From contig NZ_CP015363.1 in NCBI RefSeq assembly GCF_002078355.1, positions 1,302,001 through 1,366,000 of the forward strand: a DNA stretch of 64,000 nucleotides, given 5' to 3'. The notes under the pieces were generated by a model. The model worked only from the letters and a program-made list of their open reading frames with translations, did not search any database and was not told where the DNA came from. This DNA is from Ferroplasma acidiphilum (GTDB taxonomy: Archaea; Thermoplasmatota; Thermoplasmata; Thermoplasmatales; Thermoplasmataceae). Made by a program: the position numbers and the translations under genes. Below, one piece after another: positions 7,308-56,710 of this stretch; positions within the stretch are counted from its first letter, which is position 1, and each line of letters starts with the position of its first letter.

Positions 7308-7898
7308 TCAGGAAACTTTTTTGAATTTAAGTGAGATAAACTCTCCAGAAGTATTTATTTCACGCTCATACCCATCGAAGTTCAATGATTCTGCGTATTT
7401 TTTTGAAATAGAATGTTTTCCGTGCAGTGACATGGAAGATTTGTAATACTCCTGCATAAATTCTATTATTAAAAATGTTCCATTATCGGCTAATTTTGAA
7501 AGTATGTACTTGATATTGCTATCTCTATCCTGCCAGTGGTGGAATGACAGTGTTGTATATATAAGGTCAAATTTATTGTCAAATGGAATATCCCTGCTGC
7601 TTCCGGGCTTGCATGATGCCTTTATGCCGGCTTTTTCAAAATTCTTCTGCTCCGCCTTTACCATATTTAATGATGGGTCTATGGCAAAAAACTCTGCATG
7701 GGGAAATTTTTGTGATACCATTAATGACAGTTTACCCGGGCCTGCACCGATATCCAGTATAGACGACGGTTCCATATCCTTCATTTCATCCAGGGCAAAG
7801 CTATATAATTTTTTTAAAAGCCTCCAGGCAACACGATTGTAAAACGACGTTGTGAAAAATCCGAACTTTTCTTCACCTTCCAGATAATAATCTTTCAT
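7308..7898 (-). CDS. Class I SAM-dependent methyltransferase
   Basis: A 196-residue protein with the Rossmann methyltransferase core: motif I SILDIGAGPGKLSL (SAM-binding glycine loop, about residues 45-58), acidic end of strand 2 EFFAIDPS, and motif IV-like FDLIYTTLSFHHW. The substrate is not predictable; similarity in style is to UbiE/methyltransf_11 enzymes. It is convergent with the UbiD gene, with no spacer between stops. A shared quinone pathway is tempting but unsupported. Confidence 0.88.
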   Translation of the reverse strand: MKDYYLEGEEKFGFFTTSFYNRVAWRLLKKLYSFALDEMKDMEPSSILDIGAGPGKLSLMVSQKFPHAEFFAIDPSLNMVKAEQKNFEKAGIKASCKPGSSRDIPFDNKFDLIYTTLSFHHWQDRDSNIKYILSKLADNGTFLIIEFMQEYYKSSMSLHGKHSISKKYAESLNFDGYEREINTSGEFISLKFKKVS

Positions 7899-7984
7899 GT
7901 TATGGTATTGTGAACAGGAATTATAAATTTTCTTATTAGTGTTAATATATTATTATATATATTTTCTGAATAATTGTGGTTTTG

Positions 7985-8185
7985 TTATTTTGGTGTGCCA
8001 TCGATTTCTACGTATTTGCATTTATCGCACAGCCACCCTACTGCCCTATAGGATACTGCACCTTCCACTATATCCTGAACGTATAACCGTTCCATAGGAT
8101 AGTTTTCCTGTGTGCTGGACCTTCTTATCAATCCCTTTTTAACCTGTATATGAGCCTCGGAGGGGCAGAACTTTACATCAGCCAT
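7985..8185 (-). CDS. Small Cys-containing hypothetical protein
   Basis: A 66-residue protein, MADVKFCPSEAHIQVKKG at its start and WLCDKCKYVEIDG near its end. One Cys near the N-terminus and a CxxC near the C-terminus suggest a metal or zinc-ribbon-like site, though only three cysteines are present (a His could complete it). An AT-rich TATA-like stretch lies directly upstream. Function unknown. Confidence 0.6.
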   Translation of the reverse strand: MADVKFCPSEAHIQVKKGLIRRSSTQENYPMERLYVQDIVEGAVSYRAVGWLCDKCKYVEIDGTPK

Positions 8186-8376
8186 ATATATTCAATTATA
8201 TATATTTGTATATTATATAAATTATTCCACGAAGCTTTAATTCACTGCTAGCAATTCCAGGTATCTAAGCAGGGCATAGTGATAATATTAGAATGATTTG
8301 ATGCTTTGTTTCAAAAAATTTGCAGATGAAATTGGATAAGAGTGGTAAATAAGAGATACTCCAGCAAAATTAAATT

Positions 8377-49280: not shown

Positions 49281-49529
49281 ATGTTTGAAGAAGAAATGAC
49301 TATAGGCCCGAAGGGGCAGGTTGTAATACCGGTTGCTTTAAGGAAAACATTAAAAATTACACCGGGTTCAAAAGTGATTTTCAAAATAGATGGTGATAAG
49401 ATAATACTGGAAAAACTAAAAATGGATTCGGTTAATATATTCAGGAATATTGCAAAAAAAGGAAAAAGTGTAAATGAAATAAAATACAATGAATATGAGG
49501 ATGAAATTATTAAAAGGAATAAATTATGA
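49281..49529 (+). CDS. vapB: AbrB/MazE-like antitoxin (VapB)
   Basis: An 82-residue protein. The N-terminal swapped-hairpin DNA-binding motif MTIGPKGQVVIPVALRKTL is that of AbrB/SpoVT antitoxins; the charged C-terminal half (NEIKYNEYEDEIIKRNKL) would wrap the toxin. It overlaps the toxin gene by 4 nt (ATGA). It probably represses its own operon. Confidence 0.9.
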   Translation: MFEEEMTIGPKGQVVIPVALRKTLKITPGSKVIFKIDGDKIILEKLKMDSVNIFRNIAKKGKSVNEIKYNEYEDEIIKRNKL

Positions 49530-49936
49530 TATATATTGATTCTAATGTATTTATATTTGCTGCACTTAACAATGAGGAATTGGGAAATAGTGCTAAACTT
49601 ATTTTAGAAAAAGTGGAAAATCGAAGCATCGAGGCATCCACCAGCTCATTAACTTTTGATGAAGTTGTATGGATTGTTAAGAAGAACAGGAGTTTTGAAG
49701 ATGCAGTATCTATTGGTGAGGCTTTTCTGGGTATGGAAGGGCTCCACCTGATTGATGTAAACCAGGACTTGCTGGCACTTGCCATATCTATTATGAAAAA
49801 GTATAAAACTTATCCAAGAGATTCTATTCATGCAGCTACTGCAATTACTCAAAAAGCAGCTGTAGTTGTATCTGAGGACAGTGATTTTGATAAAATAACA
49901 GAAATAAAAAGAATAGGCATAAGGGAGTTCAAATAG
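49526..49936 (+). CDS. vapC: PIN-domain toxin (VapC)
   Basis: A 136-residue PIN RNase. Acidic residues: Asp5 in MIYIDSNVFIFA, Glu in TFDEVVW, Asp in PRDSIHAATAI and Asp in VVSEDSDFDK, the expected metal-binding quartet. VapC toxins cleave tRNA or rRNA; here the target is unknown. The module stands next to transposase debris in a variable region. Confidence 0.92.
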   Translation: MIYIDSNVFIFAALNNEELGNSAKLILEKVENRSIEASTSSLTFDEVVWIVKKNRSFEDAVSIGEAFLGMEGLHLIDVNQDLLALAISIMKKYKTYPRDSIHAATAITQKAAVVVSEDSDFDKITEIKRIGIREFK

Positions 49937-49961: not shown

Positions 49962-50320
49962 TTAGCAAATGACGATTTTCATTATGCCCCTCTGTTTTTC
50001 TCCAAGTTCCCTGTTTGATATTATAATGAGGTTATATTCAAGTGCATTTAGGCCTATCGCAGTATCAAAGTTTCTTTTGCTTGTGTACCAGATATCCTCA
50101 CATTTTAGTATCTCCTAAAGGATGCTAAAAGTACGCCCTATTTCCCATCTTAGTGAATATAGAAGCATATTCCTTTCTCAAATCAATGCCAATTTTTATG
50201 TTTACCAGTAACCTGCCAGGAATAATTCCACTCCTTTTATCTGTATCAATTATAGGAATTGCATGTGTGTTTTCAAGCACATAATCATATGTGTCCGATG
50301 CATCATATATTTATAAATCT
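49962..50320 (-). pseudogene. DDE transposase remnant (C-terminal part)
   Basis: Read on the minus strand, the first frame gives YDASDTYDYVLENTHAIPII and a following strand-helix segment, and after a frameshift RWEIGRTFSIL, a stop, then CEDIWYTSKRNFDTAIGLNA and IISNRELGEKQRG. The RWxIGRTFSxL block is the typical final Glu region of DDE transposases. N-terminus missing, one frameshift, one internal stop. The fragment abuts the end of the peptidase gene at 50322. Confidence 0.7.
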
Positions 50321-50321
50321 T

Positions 50322-51083
50322 TCACTTAGAGATTTTACTTTCATCTGCAATATTTAAATGTGTTTTCTTCTCCAGGCTAATCTTCTTTCCATGGTAAATT
50401 GCATTGTATATTTTCCTGTTATTGCGATGATGTTGTATAACAATCCCATAAGCTTTGTTTACCACTGAAATTGCCGGAATATTTGTTCCTATTGTTTGTG
50501 CTGCGAATGTATCTGCAGATATTTCGCTATATATTAAATGGAGCTTGAGGATAAGTATGACTATAACTATACTGGATAATGCCACAATAGCAGAAATTAT
50601 AAAGAGAAAATGAAATCCTGAAAGCCAGAATTGTATCAATACTATTAGAGATACCGCTACAATAAGTAAAATTGTGAGAGCTAGAATGTAGGTTTTGGAT
50701 GCATCTTTTCTAATGAAATGATATGGCTCGTGAAAAACTAAAGCTTCTCTTTCATTATCGTCCAGAGCATCGAAAAAATTTTCATTTATAAATATCTTTG
50801 CTTGTTTTCCTAGAGGGGTAAATGATGGAGATCTGTACATTTTATTAAGTGCAGGGAATTTAAATATTTCCAGATCAATATGAGTTATATGCTTAGTTAG
50901 TGCAGTGTATTTTTTAGATAAATCGTAATCTATTATTGCATTGAAACGCTGAGTTATATCTGTTTTTCTTCCATGTTTTGAACGTTGAAGTTGTATCATT
51001 ATTAATAAAATTGCAGCAAACGAGGTAAGACTGGCTAAAATATTATAGGATGCTGAATTCCCTAAATGAAAATGAAAACTCAA
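50322..51083 (-). CDS. M48-type membrane metallopeptidase, second copy, probably frameshifted at its start
   Basis: 253 residues from a TTG at 51083. HEPYH (118-122) is the HExxH zinc site, followed by two membrane segments and an EISADTFAA motif with the third-ligand Glu. It is related in layout to 54654-55514. No ATG is in frame, but ATG codons at 51157 and 51151 come into frame if the run of eight A at 51130-51137 (T on the coding strand) gained one base, adding MSNPNFFLISIVILAG. So the gene is either a recent pseudogene, phase-variable, or affected by a sequencing error. It is followed by a transposase scar where the SpoIIM-like gene would be. Confidence 0.65.
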   Translation of the reverse strand: MSFHFHLGNSASYNILASLTSFAAILLIMIQLQRSKHGRKTDITQRFNAIIDYDLSKKYTALTKHITHIDLEIFKFPALNKMYRSPSFTPLGKQAKIFINENFFDALDDNEREALVFHEPYHFIRKDASKTYILALTILLIVAVSLIVLIQFWLSGFHFLFIISAIVALSSIVIVILILKLHLIYSEISADTFAAQTIGTNIPAISVVNKAYGIVIQHHRNNRKIYNAIYHGKKISLEKKTHLNIADESKISK

Positions 51084-51179: not shown

Positions 51180-51463
51180 TTAATTGCCAAAAATCATACC
51201 GGCAATGCCACTTGTTGTTGCTTGTAATTGGTTTCCGATATTTTCGAATTCATGTCGTATTATATTATTTTCAATTGCTTTAAAACCTCTATAAACAGGC
51301 ACTTCTGTAGATGTTAATAGTGCTGCTATTGCAAATATTGATATTAAAGACTTTTACAGTTACTTCTATGCTCTCTATGGCAACTCATTTCCGTACTATT
51401 ATTACGGTACATCTCTATGGCTTTCAACTCCTTATATTTTTGATGCAGGATATTTGATCTCAT
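51180..51463 (-). pseudogene. Decayed copy of the family 2 precursor peptide gene
   Basis: From ATG 51463 it reads MRSNILHQKYKELKAIEMYR then NNSTEMSCHREHRSN, nearly the same as the start of the intact precursor at 55537-56070. A one-base deletion then shifts the frame; the shifted frame continues with ISIFAIAALLTSTEVPVY and ENNIIRHEFENIG and stops after GIAGMIFGN. The hydrophobic C-terminal domain is absent. It lies just upstream of the second peptidase copy, the same order as in the intact locus. Confidence 0.8.
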
Positions 51464-51991
51464 AATATTAATTTGTAAATAAATTTTCCTGTATGACTCG
51501 TGGGAGTTTGATAGGTTAAAGTCAAATTGTTCTTAAATTGAATTTGTTATCATGTATCATATCCAACTGTTACATTCATCTATTCACATCACAATGTTCT
51601 TATTCGGAATGCAAACCTTAATTTAGACCAACTACAATGGTTAGTGTTAACTTCAGTGCTGAACACAATACTAGTCATTTCAACTCCAGATATTGTGTAT
51701 TTTATCCTAAACTCGCTCTCAAATGTAAGGCACATACTATTGCTAGCTTTTCCAGTATACGAACTATTACTACATTTTTACAAATCTATCTACCGGAAAG
51801 AAAGCCACTGAGTTTGCGATATAGATGAATTTCTGGAATTGTAAAATATTCAATAATTAGTTAATATTTAAACATTTTTCAAATCCCATGAGTGGCATAA
51901 TTTTTAAAATAACAATAAATTAAATATTTTTAAGATAATTATAACATATACATATATAATAGCAAGGTTTATTCAATAATATCATATACAT
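51464..51991. other. Intergenic region upstream of tnpB
   Basis: AT-rich. A 63-codon ORF at 51637-51828 has poor composition and is not called. The left end of the TnpB element is presumably in the later part but no clear end sequence was identified. Confidence 0.4.
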
Positions 51992-53392
51992 ATGAGAAAA
52001 AGAGCCATGATGTCTGAAGAACGGAGAAACAAAATTAAAAATTCATTAAGAATAACAAGAGAAAGAAGAAAAACACAGGATGTAATAATACTTAAACTAA
52101 AAATAGACAATGATAAATTAAATAATAATACTATAAAGGCATTAAACACAATCTTTTTAGAAGCTAAATGGCTATATAATTATGTTATAAACAAAGAATT
52201 CAACAATGATATTTTTAATATAGACCCTAAAATAAAGAATGTAAATGTATATGTTAAAGACCATTATGAAACAAGGAAATTAAAATATTTATCATCACAG
52301 ATGAAGGAGGAAATTATTAACAGGGCAATGGACAACATAAGAGGTCTTCATAAATTAAAAGAAAAAGGCTCTAAGATAGGAAAATTGAAATTTAAATCAT
52401 TTATAACATCAATACCATTGAATCAATATACTATAACATATAAAATAATAAATAATAATTATATTAAAATACAGAATATAAAGCAGTTATTAAAAGTAAA
52501 TGGCCTGGATAATTTAGAATACTATTATGAACCGGCAAGTGCATTGCTAATCAATAAAAACAGTTATTATTATATTTACATAACAGCGTATAAAAATAAA
52601 TACATTTTAGAAAAACCTGTCAATAATCAAAAAATAATATCATTTGACTTAGGAATAAAGAATCAGTTAACATGCTCTAATGGCTCAATATTAAACTATA
52701 ATATACCAAAATCCAAAAAAGAAATAAGATTGCAAAGGTCATTGTCAAGAAAAGCTAAATATGCAGAAGGAACTAAAAAACTAAGTAGAGAGCAATCTAA
52801 GAACTATTATAAAAATAAAAACAGATTAAACAGAGAACAAACTAAAACAGCAAATAAAAGAAAAGACACTATAAACAAAATAGTCCATTATCTAACATCC
52901 AATTATGATATAGTAATAACACAGAAAGACAATATATCCGGATGGAAGCATCTCTTTGGTAAAAGGATAGAAAATACAGGTATAGGTGAAATAATCGATG
53001 CACTTAAACATAAGGCATCAACACTTATACTGCTTAACCAATTTATTCCTACAACAAAGGAATGCTCTAATTGCCATAATAAATATGATATAAAATTAGA
53101 TGAAAGAATATACAATTGCCCTAAGTGTGGTTTTATAATCGATAGGGATTATAACTCTTCATTAAATGATATGTATTATGGCATTAAAAAATTAAATGAA
53201 TTATTAAAAATTAAAAATAGAAAATTAAATAATTATTTTAAGAAATATAATATAAATTTAAATGTACCTATGGAGCGTAGGGAACTAACGCCTGTGGAGA
53301 TTATTGCCTCTGGCTTTGAAGGGCTTAATATAAGCCCCTATGTGAAGTTAAGCATGGTCAATGAAGCAGGAAGCCTCAATGCTTTAGCATGA
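51992..53392 (+). CDS. tnpB: TnpB-like RNA-guided nuclease (IS1341-type, no tnpA)
   Basis: A 466-residue protein. RuvC-I FDLGIKNQ with Asp219; RuvC-II region ITQKDNISGWKHLFGKR; zinc finger CSNC (358-361) and CPKC (376-379); RuvC-III FIIDRDYNSS with Asp384/386. The QxxxISGW region matches the subgroup with QDE-I-GW, but the usual Glu is Asp313, so cleavage may be reduced. The C-terminus after 390 is longer than usual. No tnpA is present. Base composition is very AT-rich compared with neighbours, a sign of transfer. Confidence 0.9.
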   Translation: MRKRAMMSEERRNKIKNSLRITRERRKTQDVIILKLKIDNDKLNNNTIKALNTIFLEAKWLYNYVINKEFNNDIFNIDPKIKNVNVYVKDHYETRKLKYLSSQMKEEIINRAMDNIRGLHKLKEKGSKIGKLKFKSFITSIPLNQYTITYKIINNNYIKIQNIKQLLKVNGLDNLEYYYEPASALLINKNSYYYIYITAYKNKYILEKPVNNQKIISFDLGIKNQLTCSNGSILNYNIPKSKKEIRLQRSLSRKAKYAEGTKKLSREQSKNYYKNKNRLNREQTKTANKRKDTINKIVHYLTSNYDIVITQKDNISGWKHLFGKRIENTGIGEIIDALKHKASTLILLNQFIPTTKECSNCHNKYDIKLDERIYNCPKCGFIIDRDYNSSLNDMYYGIKKLNELLKIKNRKLNNYFKKYNINLNVPMERRELTPVEIIASGFEGLNISPYVKLSMVNEAGSLNALA

Positions 53393-53402
53393 GGTAGTTC
53401 AC
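53300..53402 (+). ncRNA. Candidate omega/reRNA and right end of the TnpB element
   Basis: The 3' end of tnpB has the composition break and hairpin expected for the guide RNA scaffold: CCTCAATGCT and AGCATGAGG form a stem at 53374-53395 that includes the stop codon, followed by AGTTCAC, similar to right ends of archaeal IS1341/IS605 elements. If this is right, the sequence just downstream of about 53402 is the guide. Confidence 0.45.
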
Positions 53403-53641
53403 CACAATATCTATTGTTGATGTGTGCTTTTAGTGATTACATAATAAAGGAGTCCCCAATGATTAAAAATTTTCATGCAAAGAAAAACTTTTATAGAATT
53501 ATTCCGTAGTCTGGCAGACCAGAGAAAAGTGTCAGGCATGAGATAGAAATTCCGGGAGGAATATCCATCGTTCTGAAACGTGTACATATATTTTTGTGGA
53601 GTTGAACTTGTAAAGTTGGACACACATTACACTAGTATAAT

Positions 53642-54676
53642 TTAAAAATTATATATGCCTAATCCAGCTTCTATTAAGGCACCTATGACAAGCAAAGATA
53701 TTGAAAGTATTAGGTAAAATCCAGAACTATATAACAGATCGTGTGTTCTTTGAGTGAAATATTGTGATTTCTCATTTCTTATCATGGATTGGGTAAATGA
53801 TAATATTATATCTGTCATAACTAAAGCAATTGATAGGCCAAAAACATAGCCGAGAGTTTCCGGGAAAAACTGTGGCAATATATATTTTACAAACGATGAA
53901 GAGCCATGTGTAATATCAAGTGAAGACATTATTATTGCTTCATATATATTGGATGAAAATAGTTCTATAAATGTGCCTGTGAATAAACTAAATCCACCAA
54001 TCATATATTCAAATACATCCAGAGTTATATTGTTTTTAAGTATGGTGCTGAAGAAATGCCAGTAATTGTAAGAACCACTTTTTACAGTTCCGGAAGATGC
54101 TAAAGGGGCCGCAGGTTGTACAAACGTATATATAATTATCAAAATAAAAAATATGGAGTAATACATTATCATTGAAGAATAAAAATATTGAAGAAATAAT
54201 GATTTCTTATTTTCATTTTTATTTTTTATCGACATTAGATTAAATTTATTATCATATTCGTTTTGCAAAAATTTCTTATTTTTTAAAATAAATAGCGAGT
54301 TAATTATGTTGGATATAAAAAATGATTTTATTATATCTCTTACAAGCAATAGTTTTAATAATTTATTTTTGCTTATTTCATATTTGTTAATTATCTCTAA
54401 TTTAAATATATCCTCAGCTATACCATGACCTGTTAATGATTCAATTGAGTAATAGCAGAAAGAAATTAAAAACAATATAAGTAAGTTATATAATCCGTAA
54501 TTTGTGTCGAATATATGTAAAAACCCCGGAATGAAATCTATTTTATATGCCAGGAAAAAACCTAGAAATGCATCCTTTATATGAAATATAGAGGCAATTA
54601 ATGATGTTAATGAAATTAAAATCGTTTGTTCTGTAACGTATATTATAAATTTTTCACTTAAACTTATTAGTTTCAT
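53642..54676 (-). CDS. RDD-like plus SpoIIM (DUF95)-like membrane protein of the peptide locus
   Basis: A 344-residue membrane protein from ATG 54676 (TTG 54688 possible). The N-terminal third looks like an RDD domain (YYSIESLTGHGIAEDIFKLE, then a KLLLVRDIIKSF helix). The C-terminal half resembles SpoIIM/DUF95: FIELFSSNIYEAIIMSS, YILPQFFPETLGYVFGLSIA and the final LLVIGALIEAGLGIY. DUF95 proteins are constant members of circular bacteriocin clusters. It overlaps the peptidase gene by 23 nt, so it belongs to the same operon. Role in secretion, maturation or immunity is inferred. Confidence 0.65.
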   Translation of the reverse strand: MKLISLSEKFIIYVTEQTILISLTSLIASIFHIKDAFLGFFLAYKIDFIPGFLHIFDTNYGLYNLLILFLISFCYYSIESLTGHGIAEDIFKLEIINKYEISKNKLLKLLLVRDIIKSFFISNIINSLFILKNKKFLQNEYDNKFNLMSIKNKNENKKSLFLQYFYSSMIMYYSIFFILIIIYTFVQPAAPLASSGTVKSGSYNYWHFFSTILKNNITLDVFEYMIGGFSLFTGTFIELFSSNIYEAIIMSSLDITHGSSSFVKYILPQFFPETLGYVFGLSIALVMTDIILSFTQSMIRNEKSQYFTQRTHDLLYSSGFYLILSISLLVIGALIEAGLGIYNF

Positions 54677-55514
54677 TGTATTCCTCAATTTTCTTTAATC
54701 TTTTATTAATCTGTTTTTTTATTCTAAATATCATATACCTATGACCAATGATATTTTTACTAAGATAATACGAAGTTTTCTGCAAAGCTGTAGATATATA
54801 ATCTTTTTTTAATTCTTTTATAGAAAATATGTCACAACTCAGTTCTTCTCTGTTAAAGATTATTGTGAAGATGGAGTATAGAATTATTATCACTGTGAGA
54901 AACCCAATAATTAGATTTATTAATAAGGACAATTGTACTCCATACATAAATATTGTCAACAGCAAAAATATTATGGCTCCACCAGCAAGCAGTATGGCAA
55001 AAGCAAGCACTTTTCGAATTAACCCACTGTTAGTTATAAAATGACCTATTTCATGAAGTACTACCGCGTCCATTTCATCAGGGGTAATATAGTCTAAAAA
55101 ATCGCGTTGTATCAAAATTTTTAATGCTTTAGAATAAAAGATACCTGCTGGAGATAAATGAAACAAATCGTTTAAATCATATATGTATATATTTATTTCT
55201 TTAATATTGCTCTCCCTATATTTTATACCTGCATATTTTTTTGTATAAATTTCCGACAAATCATAATCCTTAACTGCGTTACGTGGCTCGTCAAGATATC
55301 CTGTTTTTTTAAAGTATAAATACAGTAAAATTCCTAATTCAGCTGGGTAAATAAAAATGTTAAAAATATTTAAAATTATATTTTCTATTTTAGTTGGGTG
55401 TAAGAGAATAAAATTGTCGAAAATTGTAAAAATAGAAACGGTGATTAAACCGATAATTAAATATGGTAAAAGGAATAACTTATAAATTTTCTTTTTATTA
55501 TTTTCGATTTTCAT
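54654..55514 (-). CDS. M48-type membrane metallopeptidase of the peptide locus
   Basis: A 286-residue protein. Two N-terminal transmembrane segments (11-32, about 44-68), zinc motif HEIGH at 154-158 in VVLHEIGHFITNSGL, two more hydrophobic helices, then FNREELSCDIFSIKEL with the third-ligand Glu. The layout is that of HtpX/M48 or M56-like membrane peptidases. It lies 22 nt after the precursor gene and overlaps the SpoIIM-like gene, so it is a good candidate for processing the precursor. A second copy is at 50322-51083. Confidence 0.78.
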   Translation of the reverse strand: MKIENNKKKIYKLFLLPYLIIGLITVSIFTIFDNFILLHPTKIENIILNIFNIFIYPAELGILLYLYFKKTGYLDEPRNAVKDYDLSEIYTKKYAGIKYRESNIKEINIYIYDLNDLFHLSPAGIFYSKALKILIQRDFLDYITPDEMDAVVLHEIGHFITNSGLIRKVLAFAILLAGGAIIFLLLTIFMYGVQLSLLINLIIGFLTVIIILYSIFTIIFNREELSCDIFSIKELKKDYISTALQKTSYYLSKNIIGHRYMIFRIKKQINKRLKKIEEYNETNKFK

Positions 55515-55536
55515 TCATTCTTCCTCAAGTATATAA

Positions 55537-56070
55537 TTAATACGCAACTATGGCGATTGCCAATGATCCTAATAGTGCTTGCCCTACTGGATTAGATAGA
55601 TCAAGTGCCAAGATCCCTATTATTGCAACGTTACTCCATGAACTCCAAAGTATAGCGAACCCAATTGTCGCCAAAGTACCACTTCCTACGACAATACCGA
55701 CACCGATAAATAAACCGATAAGGAAGTTCACTATGTCGGTTTCGGTCGGCCTAGCACCCCAATGCGTAAGCTCGTAATCCACAAGCTCCGCTATATGTCC
55801 ACTAGTTATAACATCAGTAGATGAGGATTGAATTGTTTTACCTAAATTCCCAAATTCATACGGTATTGCATTATTTTCCATTGATATTAATCCACTATAC
55901 ACCGGTACTCCTACAGATGTTAGTAAAACTGCTATTGCAAATATAGATATCAAAGATTTTTTCCAGTTATTTTTATGTTCTTTGTGATAATCCATTCCCG
56001 TACTATTGTTACGGTACATTTCAATGGCTTTCAACTCTTTATATTTTGGATTCAAAATATTTGATTCCAT
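55537..56070 (-). CDS. Putative precursor of a hydrophobic (circular-bacteriocin-like) peptide
   Basis: 177 residues. 1-37 polar and basic (KYKELKAIEMYRNNSTG), 38-60 one transmembrane segment (signal anchor), 61-110 polar, 113-177 almost wholly hydrophobic and Gly/Ala/Ile-rich with no charge except Asp157, ending SLAIAIVAY. Circular bacteriocins are 60-70 residue hydrophobic helical peptides whose precursors end in an aromatic residue (for example AIAY or VIAW), so the C-terminal domain fits that class in size and end. The leader is much longer than usual. It is the first gene of an operon with a peptidase and a SpoIIM-like protein. Function inferred. Confidence 0.6.
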   Translation of the reverse strand: MESNILNPKYKELKAIEMYRNNSTGMDYHKEHKNNWKKSLISIFAIAVLLTSVGVPVYSGLISMENNAIPYEFGNLGKTIQSSSTDVITSGHIAELVDYELTHWGARPTETDIVNFLIGLFIGVGIVVGSGTLATIGFAILWSSWSNVAIIGILALDLSNPVGQALLGSLAIAIVAY

Positions 56071-56710
56071 ATAATAATAATAATAATAATAACTATTTAA
56101 ATATTTCTATATAGTCAGTCAGAGTTTAATAGTTTACTATCAACTTATTCCCTGAACCACTATTTTATACTATTGGAAAAATGTCGTATAATACTGTTAC
56201 ATGGATTGAAAGAAATCATGTGTGAATTTATACATATCAAAAATTCTTCTGTAAAATGGTTGTCACTGGAGAAATTAACTCATTAAATAGTAATTATAAA
56301 GTATATAAAGTTGTGAAGTAATCACAATTATTAGTATAATTTTAGAAATTGATTTTTATTTATTTAATAATATACAAGTGGCATATTGGGGTGTATTCGC
56401 GACGCCTGCATAGTAATTAATCATCCGGTATCTTAATTCCCATATTAAATCAGCATGAATCACATGGGCATAGTTGAGAAATAGTATGGTATGTATTATC
56501 TAGGTAGAGATAGTAAAATAAAGAATTATACTAAACCAACTATACCATTGTATGAATCTGAACCTAAATGATGCATACCAACCCGCCTCTGTTATTTAAT
56601 GATTAAATTTATAAATAACACCGGCTTATATTAATACAATATTGTGGAAATAACCCAACGGAAAAAATATATGCCTGTTGTAATTATATTGTTGCTGGCT
56701 GATGTAAAAA
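56071..56710. other. Intergenic region upstream of the peptide operon
   Basis: 640 bp without a convincing gene. It begins with a (TAA)n-like tract and an AT-rich promoter zone for the precursor gene. A short ORF from TTG 56643 directly before 56711 is too small to call. Confidence 0.5.

Follow-up and report, generated by a model that had tools for sequence, protein, structure and literature searches.

Organization of the locus

The window analysed here is a 64,000-nucleotide stretch of Ferroplasma acidiphilum DNA, taken from a genome of 1,826,943 bp that falls into one species-level group with Ferroplasma acidarmanus Fer1. It contains a compact three-gene unit with the following features:

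55537..56070, minus strand: gene for the 177-aa precursor, of type I (ORF call; same-leader homologues across 8 of the order's genera)
55798..56070, minus strand: leader part, residues 1–91 of the precursor (conserved module that tracks SpoIIM)
55540..55797, minus strand: variable core, residues 92–177 of the precursor (mosaic break in relatives)
54654..55514, minus strand: M48 membrane metallopeptidase, 286 aa (PF01435; Ste24/HtpX-like by profile)
55041..55055, minus strand: zinc motif HEIGH, residues 154–158 of the M48 protein (from the sequence)
53642..54676, minus strand: RDD-SpoIIM (DUF95) membrane protein, 344 aa (PF01944; ATG at 54676)
56071..56112, minus strand: predicted promoter region, TTTAAATA box and TTA run (from the sequence only)

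An earlier note on this DNA had proposed an operon of three ORFs, the third overlapping the peptidase gene. The ORF list confirms all three positions, and the tight packing on the minus strand bears out the operon: the precursor and M48 genes are separated by 22 nt, and the M48 and SpoIIM genes overlap by 23 nt.

A decayed second unit and comparison with Fer1

A second, broken unit lies at 51463–50303 on the same strand, about 4 kb from the intact one:

51180..51463, minus strand: decayed precursor; stops in the leader, core lost; also decayed in Fer1
50322..51083, minus strand: decayed-copy M48 gene; retains HEPYH, reading frame disrupted in a T run close to the start
50303..50344, minus strand: SpoIIM remnant of the decayed copy; first 13 codons and then a stop, MKVKSLSERFINI*

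The decayed leader is 71% identical to that of the intact precursor over residues 1–38, after which it acquires stops. The region is syntenic in F. acidarmanus Fer1, where positions 51494–56589, comprising the intact unit and a TnpB gene, are missing and the decayed copy alone is present at the syntenic site. Elsewhere in Fer1 there is a SpoIIM fragment 99.6% identical to the gene in the window, located beside an apparent insertion sequence. The absence of the intact unit from Fer1 indicates that the unit is gained and lost between close strains. The gene between the intact and decayed units (51992–53392) is TnpB-like (IS605 OrfB/Cas12f-like), and just past the decayed unit, at 49281–49936, lies a pair encoding a MazE-like antitoxin and a PIN-domain toxin.

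Leader and core of the precursor

The precursor begins with a polar, basic N-terminus, followed by a single hydrophobic segment at about residues 36–53, and closes with a hydrophobic C-terminal block whose last residue is Tyr; the earlier note had recognized the polar leader, the membrane anchor and the hydrophobic block. Its leader (residues 1–91) consists of the basic N-terminus, the one membrane segment, an invariant GVP motif and a linker. The core runs from HIAELVDYELTHWGARPT... to ...AIVAY and comprises 86 aa, with a GRAVY of 1.08, a net charge of –5 and no Cys; the boundary between leader and core is the mosaic break observed in relatives, not a mapped cleavage site. The C-terminal block, given as about 65 residues in the earlier note, comes to about 86 when counted from the conserved GDIVxYELTHWG motif.

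All full-length members of the family share this plan: a basic N-terminus, one membrane segment, the invariant GVP, a linker, the motif G(D/N)(I/L)(V/I)xYE(L/I)xHWGxxP that opens the core, and a hydrophobic variable stretch that stops at one aligned C-terminal position in every member. Measured from the motif onward, the cores are 73–97 residues long, with a GRAVY of 0.6–1.4 and a net charge of –1 to –14, and cysteine is absent from 26 out of 26. Close precursor pairs have more synonymous than non-synonymous change, which identifies them as true protein genes. The basic N-terminus together with the single membrane segment suggests that the leader acts as a Sec-type signal anchor, which would place the core on or through the cell membrane.

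No Pfam or NCBIfam family matched the precursor, nor did any PDB sequence or plasmid, and the core profile found no match in PDB at E ≤ 10. The core was modelled as five helices with low confidence (pLDDT 66).

The M48 peptidase and the SpoIIM protein

The middle gene was correctly assigned to the M48 peptidases: its product matches PF01435 above the curated cut-off and carries the zinc-site motifs HEIGH (residues 154–158) and ELSCD. PF01435 is matched by 22 of 24 aligned homologues, and the M48 profile matches the structures of Ste24p (4il3) and yeast CAAX protease. HExxH is retained in all 26 unit-assigned peptidases, most pairs of which are just 14–30% identical, and 6 of the 26 have Gln in place of Glu as their third zinc ligand. 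(One unit has two M48-like genes, the second of which was taken as its peptidase; the first lacks HExxH.) Retention of HExxH despite such divergence suggests that catalysis is required, with specificity following the core. Genome contigs queried with the M48 alone yielded no relatives because this protein diverges too fast. Extra M48-like genes without HExxH adjoin normal units at L041:9364–10365 and L032:900–1871; they are possibly binding-only immunity proteins or products of decay.

The third gene had been described as encoding RDD and SpoIIM parts. The SpoIIM assignment holds, at the cut-off of PF01944: the score is 26.8 bits (E 5.9e-6) for a threshold of 26.9, and 28.0 bits when the whole genome was searched. 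Of 11 homologues, 9 belong to this family by the same profile. The RDD assignment is weaker: PF06271 is matched by one homologue (E 0.003), and the phylum has, in a different family, an RDD-like protein that matches the profile's N-terminal half (3e-7). The protein is 41–70% identical to most of its homologues. When 390 genomes of the phylum were searched with the SpoIIM profile, only same-family relatives and one RDD-like protein were found; the same profile had no match in PDB. A viral origin was considered and rejected, as the SpoIIM profile had no match in viral contigs.

Several more isolated SpoIIM genes were also encountered. A stand-alone SpoIIM protein, with no precursor seen, is encoded at G000:C1:1211800–1212258 (L143:4630–5316) beside a chloride-channel-like gene. 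At locus L117 a SpoIIM gene (1441–2547) and a precursor-like ORF (7814–8347) lie 5 kb apart, with no M48 found adjoining, and L118:1139–2218 encodes another more distant SpoIIM relative. The distant relatives at L117 and L118 possibly represent a third variant of the unit.

Distribution of the unit

The three genes co-occur elsewhere, as the earlier proposal implied: the order precursor, M48, SpoIIM is found in almost every precursor-encoding locus. When 117 genomes of the order were searched at the protein level, relatives turned up in about 19, spread over 8 genera and with the weakest of them doubtful; a profile search of the order gave a similar set. Copy number is patchy, some genomes having no units and others of the same genus three or four, and tandem arrays and decayed copies are common. 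Among the loci are two from a single E-plasma scaffold and several from Thermoplasmata MAGs; genes flanking the units sampled are transposases and unrelated metabolic genes.

The genome that contains the window also carries an intact but divergent unit, type II, at G000:C1:19838–22328 (L114:4839–7329). Fer1 carries the type II unit as well, at the same conserved site, which is flanked by a DUF763 gene and hydantoinase genes, and divergent type II forms occur in other genera. Profile comparison shows type I and type II precursors to be homologues along almost their entire length (probability 99.3, E 3e-20).

Two arrays preserve traces of rearrangement. In L038, the first unit is followed by 178 nt that repeat the beginning of the intact SpoIIM gene with 100% identity. 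L033 contains four precursor–M48 pairs that share one intact SpoIIM gene, and the core of one pair, with neither leader nor membrane segment, directly follows the preceding M48 gene. By analogy, these scars resemble the pattern of recombinational insertion and the orphan modules of polymorphic toxins.

Modular inheritance of leader, core, M48 and SpoIIM

Distance matrices of the four parts were correlated, with permutation P-values, for nine type I units with an intact leader and SpoIIM. Leader and SpoIIM distances were strongly correlated (r = 0.89, p = 4e-4), as were core and M48 distances (r = 0.77, p = 2e-4); the leader–core, leader–M48, core–SpoIIM and M48–SpoIIM correlations were not significant in these nine units (r 0.02–0.08). 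In a set of 17 type I units, r was 0.59 for core and M48 (p = 2e-4) and 0.07 for leader and core. For 13 of 21 type I units, looking in another genome for the closest core and for the closest M48 leads to the same owner. The genes are arranged in the order leader–core–M48–SpoIIM, so adjacency alone cannot account for a pairing of outer with outer and inner with inner parts.

Individual comparisons show the same mosaic structure. Two units of one genome have leaders that are 96% identical (dS 0.12), while their cores and M48s are 34% and 25% identical, respectively, with a dS of about 2, i.e. synonymous sites near saturation. At the nucleotide level, leaders are 91–100% identical, and within about 45–90 bases past the junction with the core identity has fallen to about 40%. 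The converse mosaic was found between an E-plasma unit and that of a second MAG, with 80% identical cores and 49% identical leaders. The core and M48 thus form a cassette that is swapped between two fixed arms, the leader and the SpoIIM gene. Judged from these sequences, the pattern is as expected of a polymorphic peptide inherited with a cognate immunity or core-specific maturation protein, SpoIIM being shared.

These data bear on two alternative explanations. The core could be a linear toxin, with the M48 as its maturation protease and SpoIIM as an immunity or export protein. Conservation of HExxH in every unit agrees with this; circular bacteriocin clusters have no known leader peptidase except for one putative M50 case (PMC8534725), a gap that such a peptidase would fill, and the SpoIIM domain has been linked to immunity (PMC5695211). 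We nevertheless consider this explanation somewhat unlikely, since the M48 covaries with the core and not with the leader, and a single conserved SpoIIM per array of differing cores is the reverse of what a cognate-immunity SpoIIM would produce. Variation of the M48 with the core fits cognate immunity at least as well as core release. The other alternative, a membrane quality-control module formed by an HtpX-like protease and a small membrane substrate or adaptor, agrees with the Ste24/HtpX-like nature of the M48; it is highly improbable, because patchy occurrence, arrays, decay and cassette exchange are not traits of housekeeping modules.

Comparison with circular bacteriocins

The earlier note had interpreted the locus as circular-bacteriocin-like, pointing out that DUF95 proteins are regular members of circular bacteriocin clusters. 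The latter statement agrees with the literature: SpoIIM is present in every known cluster of this kind (PMC6131525), and without it the mature rings of leucocyclicin Q stay inside the cell (PMC7132975; PMC6131525). In a true head-to-tail circular bacteriocin, the M48 would cut the leader, and SpoIIM, with or without the M48, would close the ring and export it. Besides the presence of SpoIIM, several likenesses to AS-48/uberolysin clusters, in particular that of Listeria plasmid NZ_CP124265.1, speak for such an arrangement. In both cases a hydrophobic, predicted-helical peptide with a fixed hydrophobic C-terminus is encoded C-terminally, and the AS-48-type Listeria cluster has the same order of precursor, multi-membrane protein and SpoIIM. 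The motif LPxFFxExLGxV is common to the SpoIIM of the unit and that of Listeria (E 6e-4, probability only 30). Archaeal cores end in VIAW, IVAY or IIAA, compared with VIAW in AS-48 and AIAY in circularin A, though endings such as VIAW and IVAY are only suggestive, as both sets close in short hydrophobic motifs. Of the reference peptides, AS-48 and carnocyclin A agree with PDB; for uberolysin and circularin A in the comparison alignment, and for the termini of enterocin NKR-5-3B, provisional sequences were used.

Membership in the circular bacteriocins was not supported by profile analysis. At E ≤ 1, PF09221 (AS-48/uberolysin) and all NCBIfam models matched 0 of 18 precursor members, although as a positive control the PF09221 scan picked up the Listeria AS-48 homologue at 4e-13. 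Profile–profile comparison (hhalign) of the cores with six circular bacteriocins gave a probability of 0.1 out of 100, and Foldseek, run with the low-confidence core model, returned noise only and no AS-48-like fold. The archaeal cores are acidic and larger than the 60–70 residues of circular bacteriocins, and the leader of about 90 residues with its own membrane anchor contrasts with leaders of 2–48 residues. The middle gene of the archaeal unit encodes an M48, whereas that of the Listeria cluster encodes an unrelated membrane protein; the latter had been considered as a possible M48 homologue and was rejected, as no homology was found. The absence of an ABC transporter, already remarked upon in the earlier note, was confirmed: no ATP-binding protein is encoded by the ORFs of the unit and no exporter ATPase is conserved in it, while an ATPase is treated as required for circular bacteriocins (PMC8534725). 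A true circular bacteriocin is therefore unlikely. The unit behaves as a polymorphic bacteriocin cassette, for which the AS-48-family label is unproven.

Proposed function of the unit

We propose that the unit probably makes a polymorphic, self-protected, membrane-active, archaeocin-like weapon, in which the leader and SpoIIM arms are fixed and the core and M48 are swapped. The conserved SpoIIM would handle every precursor bearing this leader, as an export or maturation partner; leader–SpoIIM covariation and the arrays sharing one intact SpoIIM point to such a role. Each M48 would be cognate to its own core, most likely as an immunity protease that degrades peptide of the type made by the cell itself and, as the second likeliest option, as a core-specific maturation protease. 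The active site of HtpX-type peptidases is cytosolic, which would suit either the degradation of peptide lodged in the membrane of its own producer or a processing step that precedes export. New specificities would arise when a core–M48 cassette is swapped between the fixed leader and the fixed SpoIIM gene. More tentatively, such units may constitute a class of SpoIIM-dependent archaeal peptide weapons not described before, the M48 of the exchanged cassette being either core-specific immunity or the enzyme, so far missing, that processes or cyclises SpoIIM-type bacteriocins.

Several points weaken this proposal. No exporter ATPase is conserved, Gln takes the place of the third zinc ligand in 6 of the 26 peptidases, and the type I units with leader and SpoIIM both intact number only nine. 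The covariation of leader and SpoIIM may be no more than a reflection of the species tree; arms inherited vertically would suffice to produce the correlation, which is no proof that SpoIIM binds the leader. Furthermore, the type II core is stable and under purifying selection (dN 0.06 and dS 0.70 between two Ferroplasma strains), which contradicts an arms-race expectation for that copy. Persistence of this stable unit in two strains at a conserved chromosomal site would rather favour a signalling, mating-type or kin-recognition peptide, and recognition systems likewise typically have polymorphic pairs. Such a function appears quite unlikely, given that no receptor or regulator gene is conserved beside the unit and its sole variable partner is a protease.

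Relation to other known systems

Returning to the proposed weapon, it has close organizational parallels in polymorphic toxins. In CDI, Rhs and streptococcal cassette bacteriocin loci, a constant leader is followed by a variable C-terminal part that is exchanged together with the next gene; leaderless orphan modules and a shared delivery component are further features of these systems. The archaeal unit similarly has a constant N-terminal part, a sharp break and a variable C-terminal part, with the downstream M48 gene co-inherited with the variable core and with orphan cassettes and scars in arrays. It differs in having a small hydrophobic peptide in place of a large toxin and a membrane metallopeptidase as the partner, and in being archaeal. 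As a candidate antimicrobial peptide of archaea, its product can be compared with halocins, sulfolobicins and archaeal lanthipeptides, but halocin C8 and lanthipeptides need cysteines, whereas the cores are cysteine-free and the unit has no modification enzyme. The M48 shares HExxH and membrane helices with Ste24/HtpX peptidases, from which it is distinguished by fast divergence, operon linkage, core specificity and the occasional Gln as third ligand.

Archaeal peptide warfare is poorly known, and the unit may be a new kind of archaeal warfare locus. Makarova's 2019 survey of archaeal toxins and peptides in mBio reportedly contains uncharacterised candidates, which may include this precursor family. 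If the units are weapons, they offer a system that is genetically clear, in acidophiles whose lack of a wall leaves the membrane directly open to such a peptide. The split into leader plus SpoIIM and core plus M48 provides a lead on two issues that have long been open for SpoIIM-type bacteriocins, namely what SpoIIM recognises and by which peptidase the peptide is processed or neutralised. Neither antiSMASH nor BACTIBASE detected a bacteriocin locus in the E-plasma genome (PMC10354927), where two of the units are located.

A trinucleotide repeat upstream of the precursor gene

In the window, a run of TTA trinucleotides (56071–56095) abuts the start codon of the precursor gene, and the same is seen in most type I precursors, with a copy number that varies between paralogues. 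Changes in the length of the run could alter promoter spacing and so give rise to phase variation.
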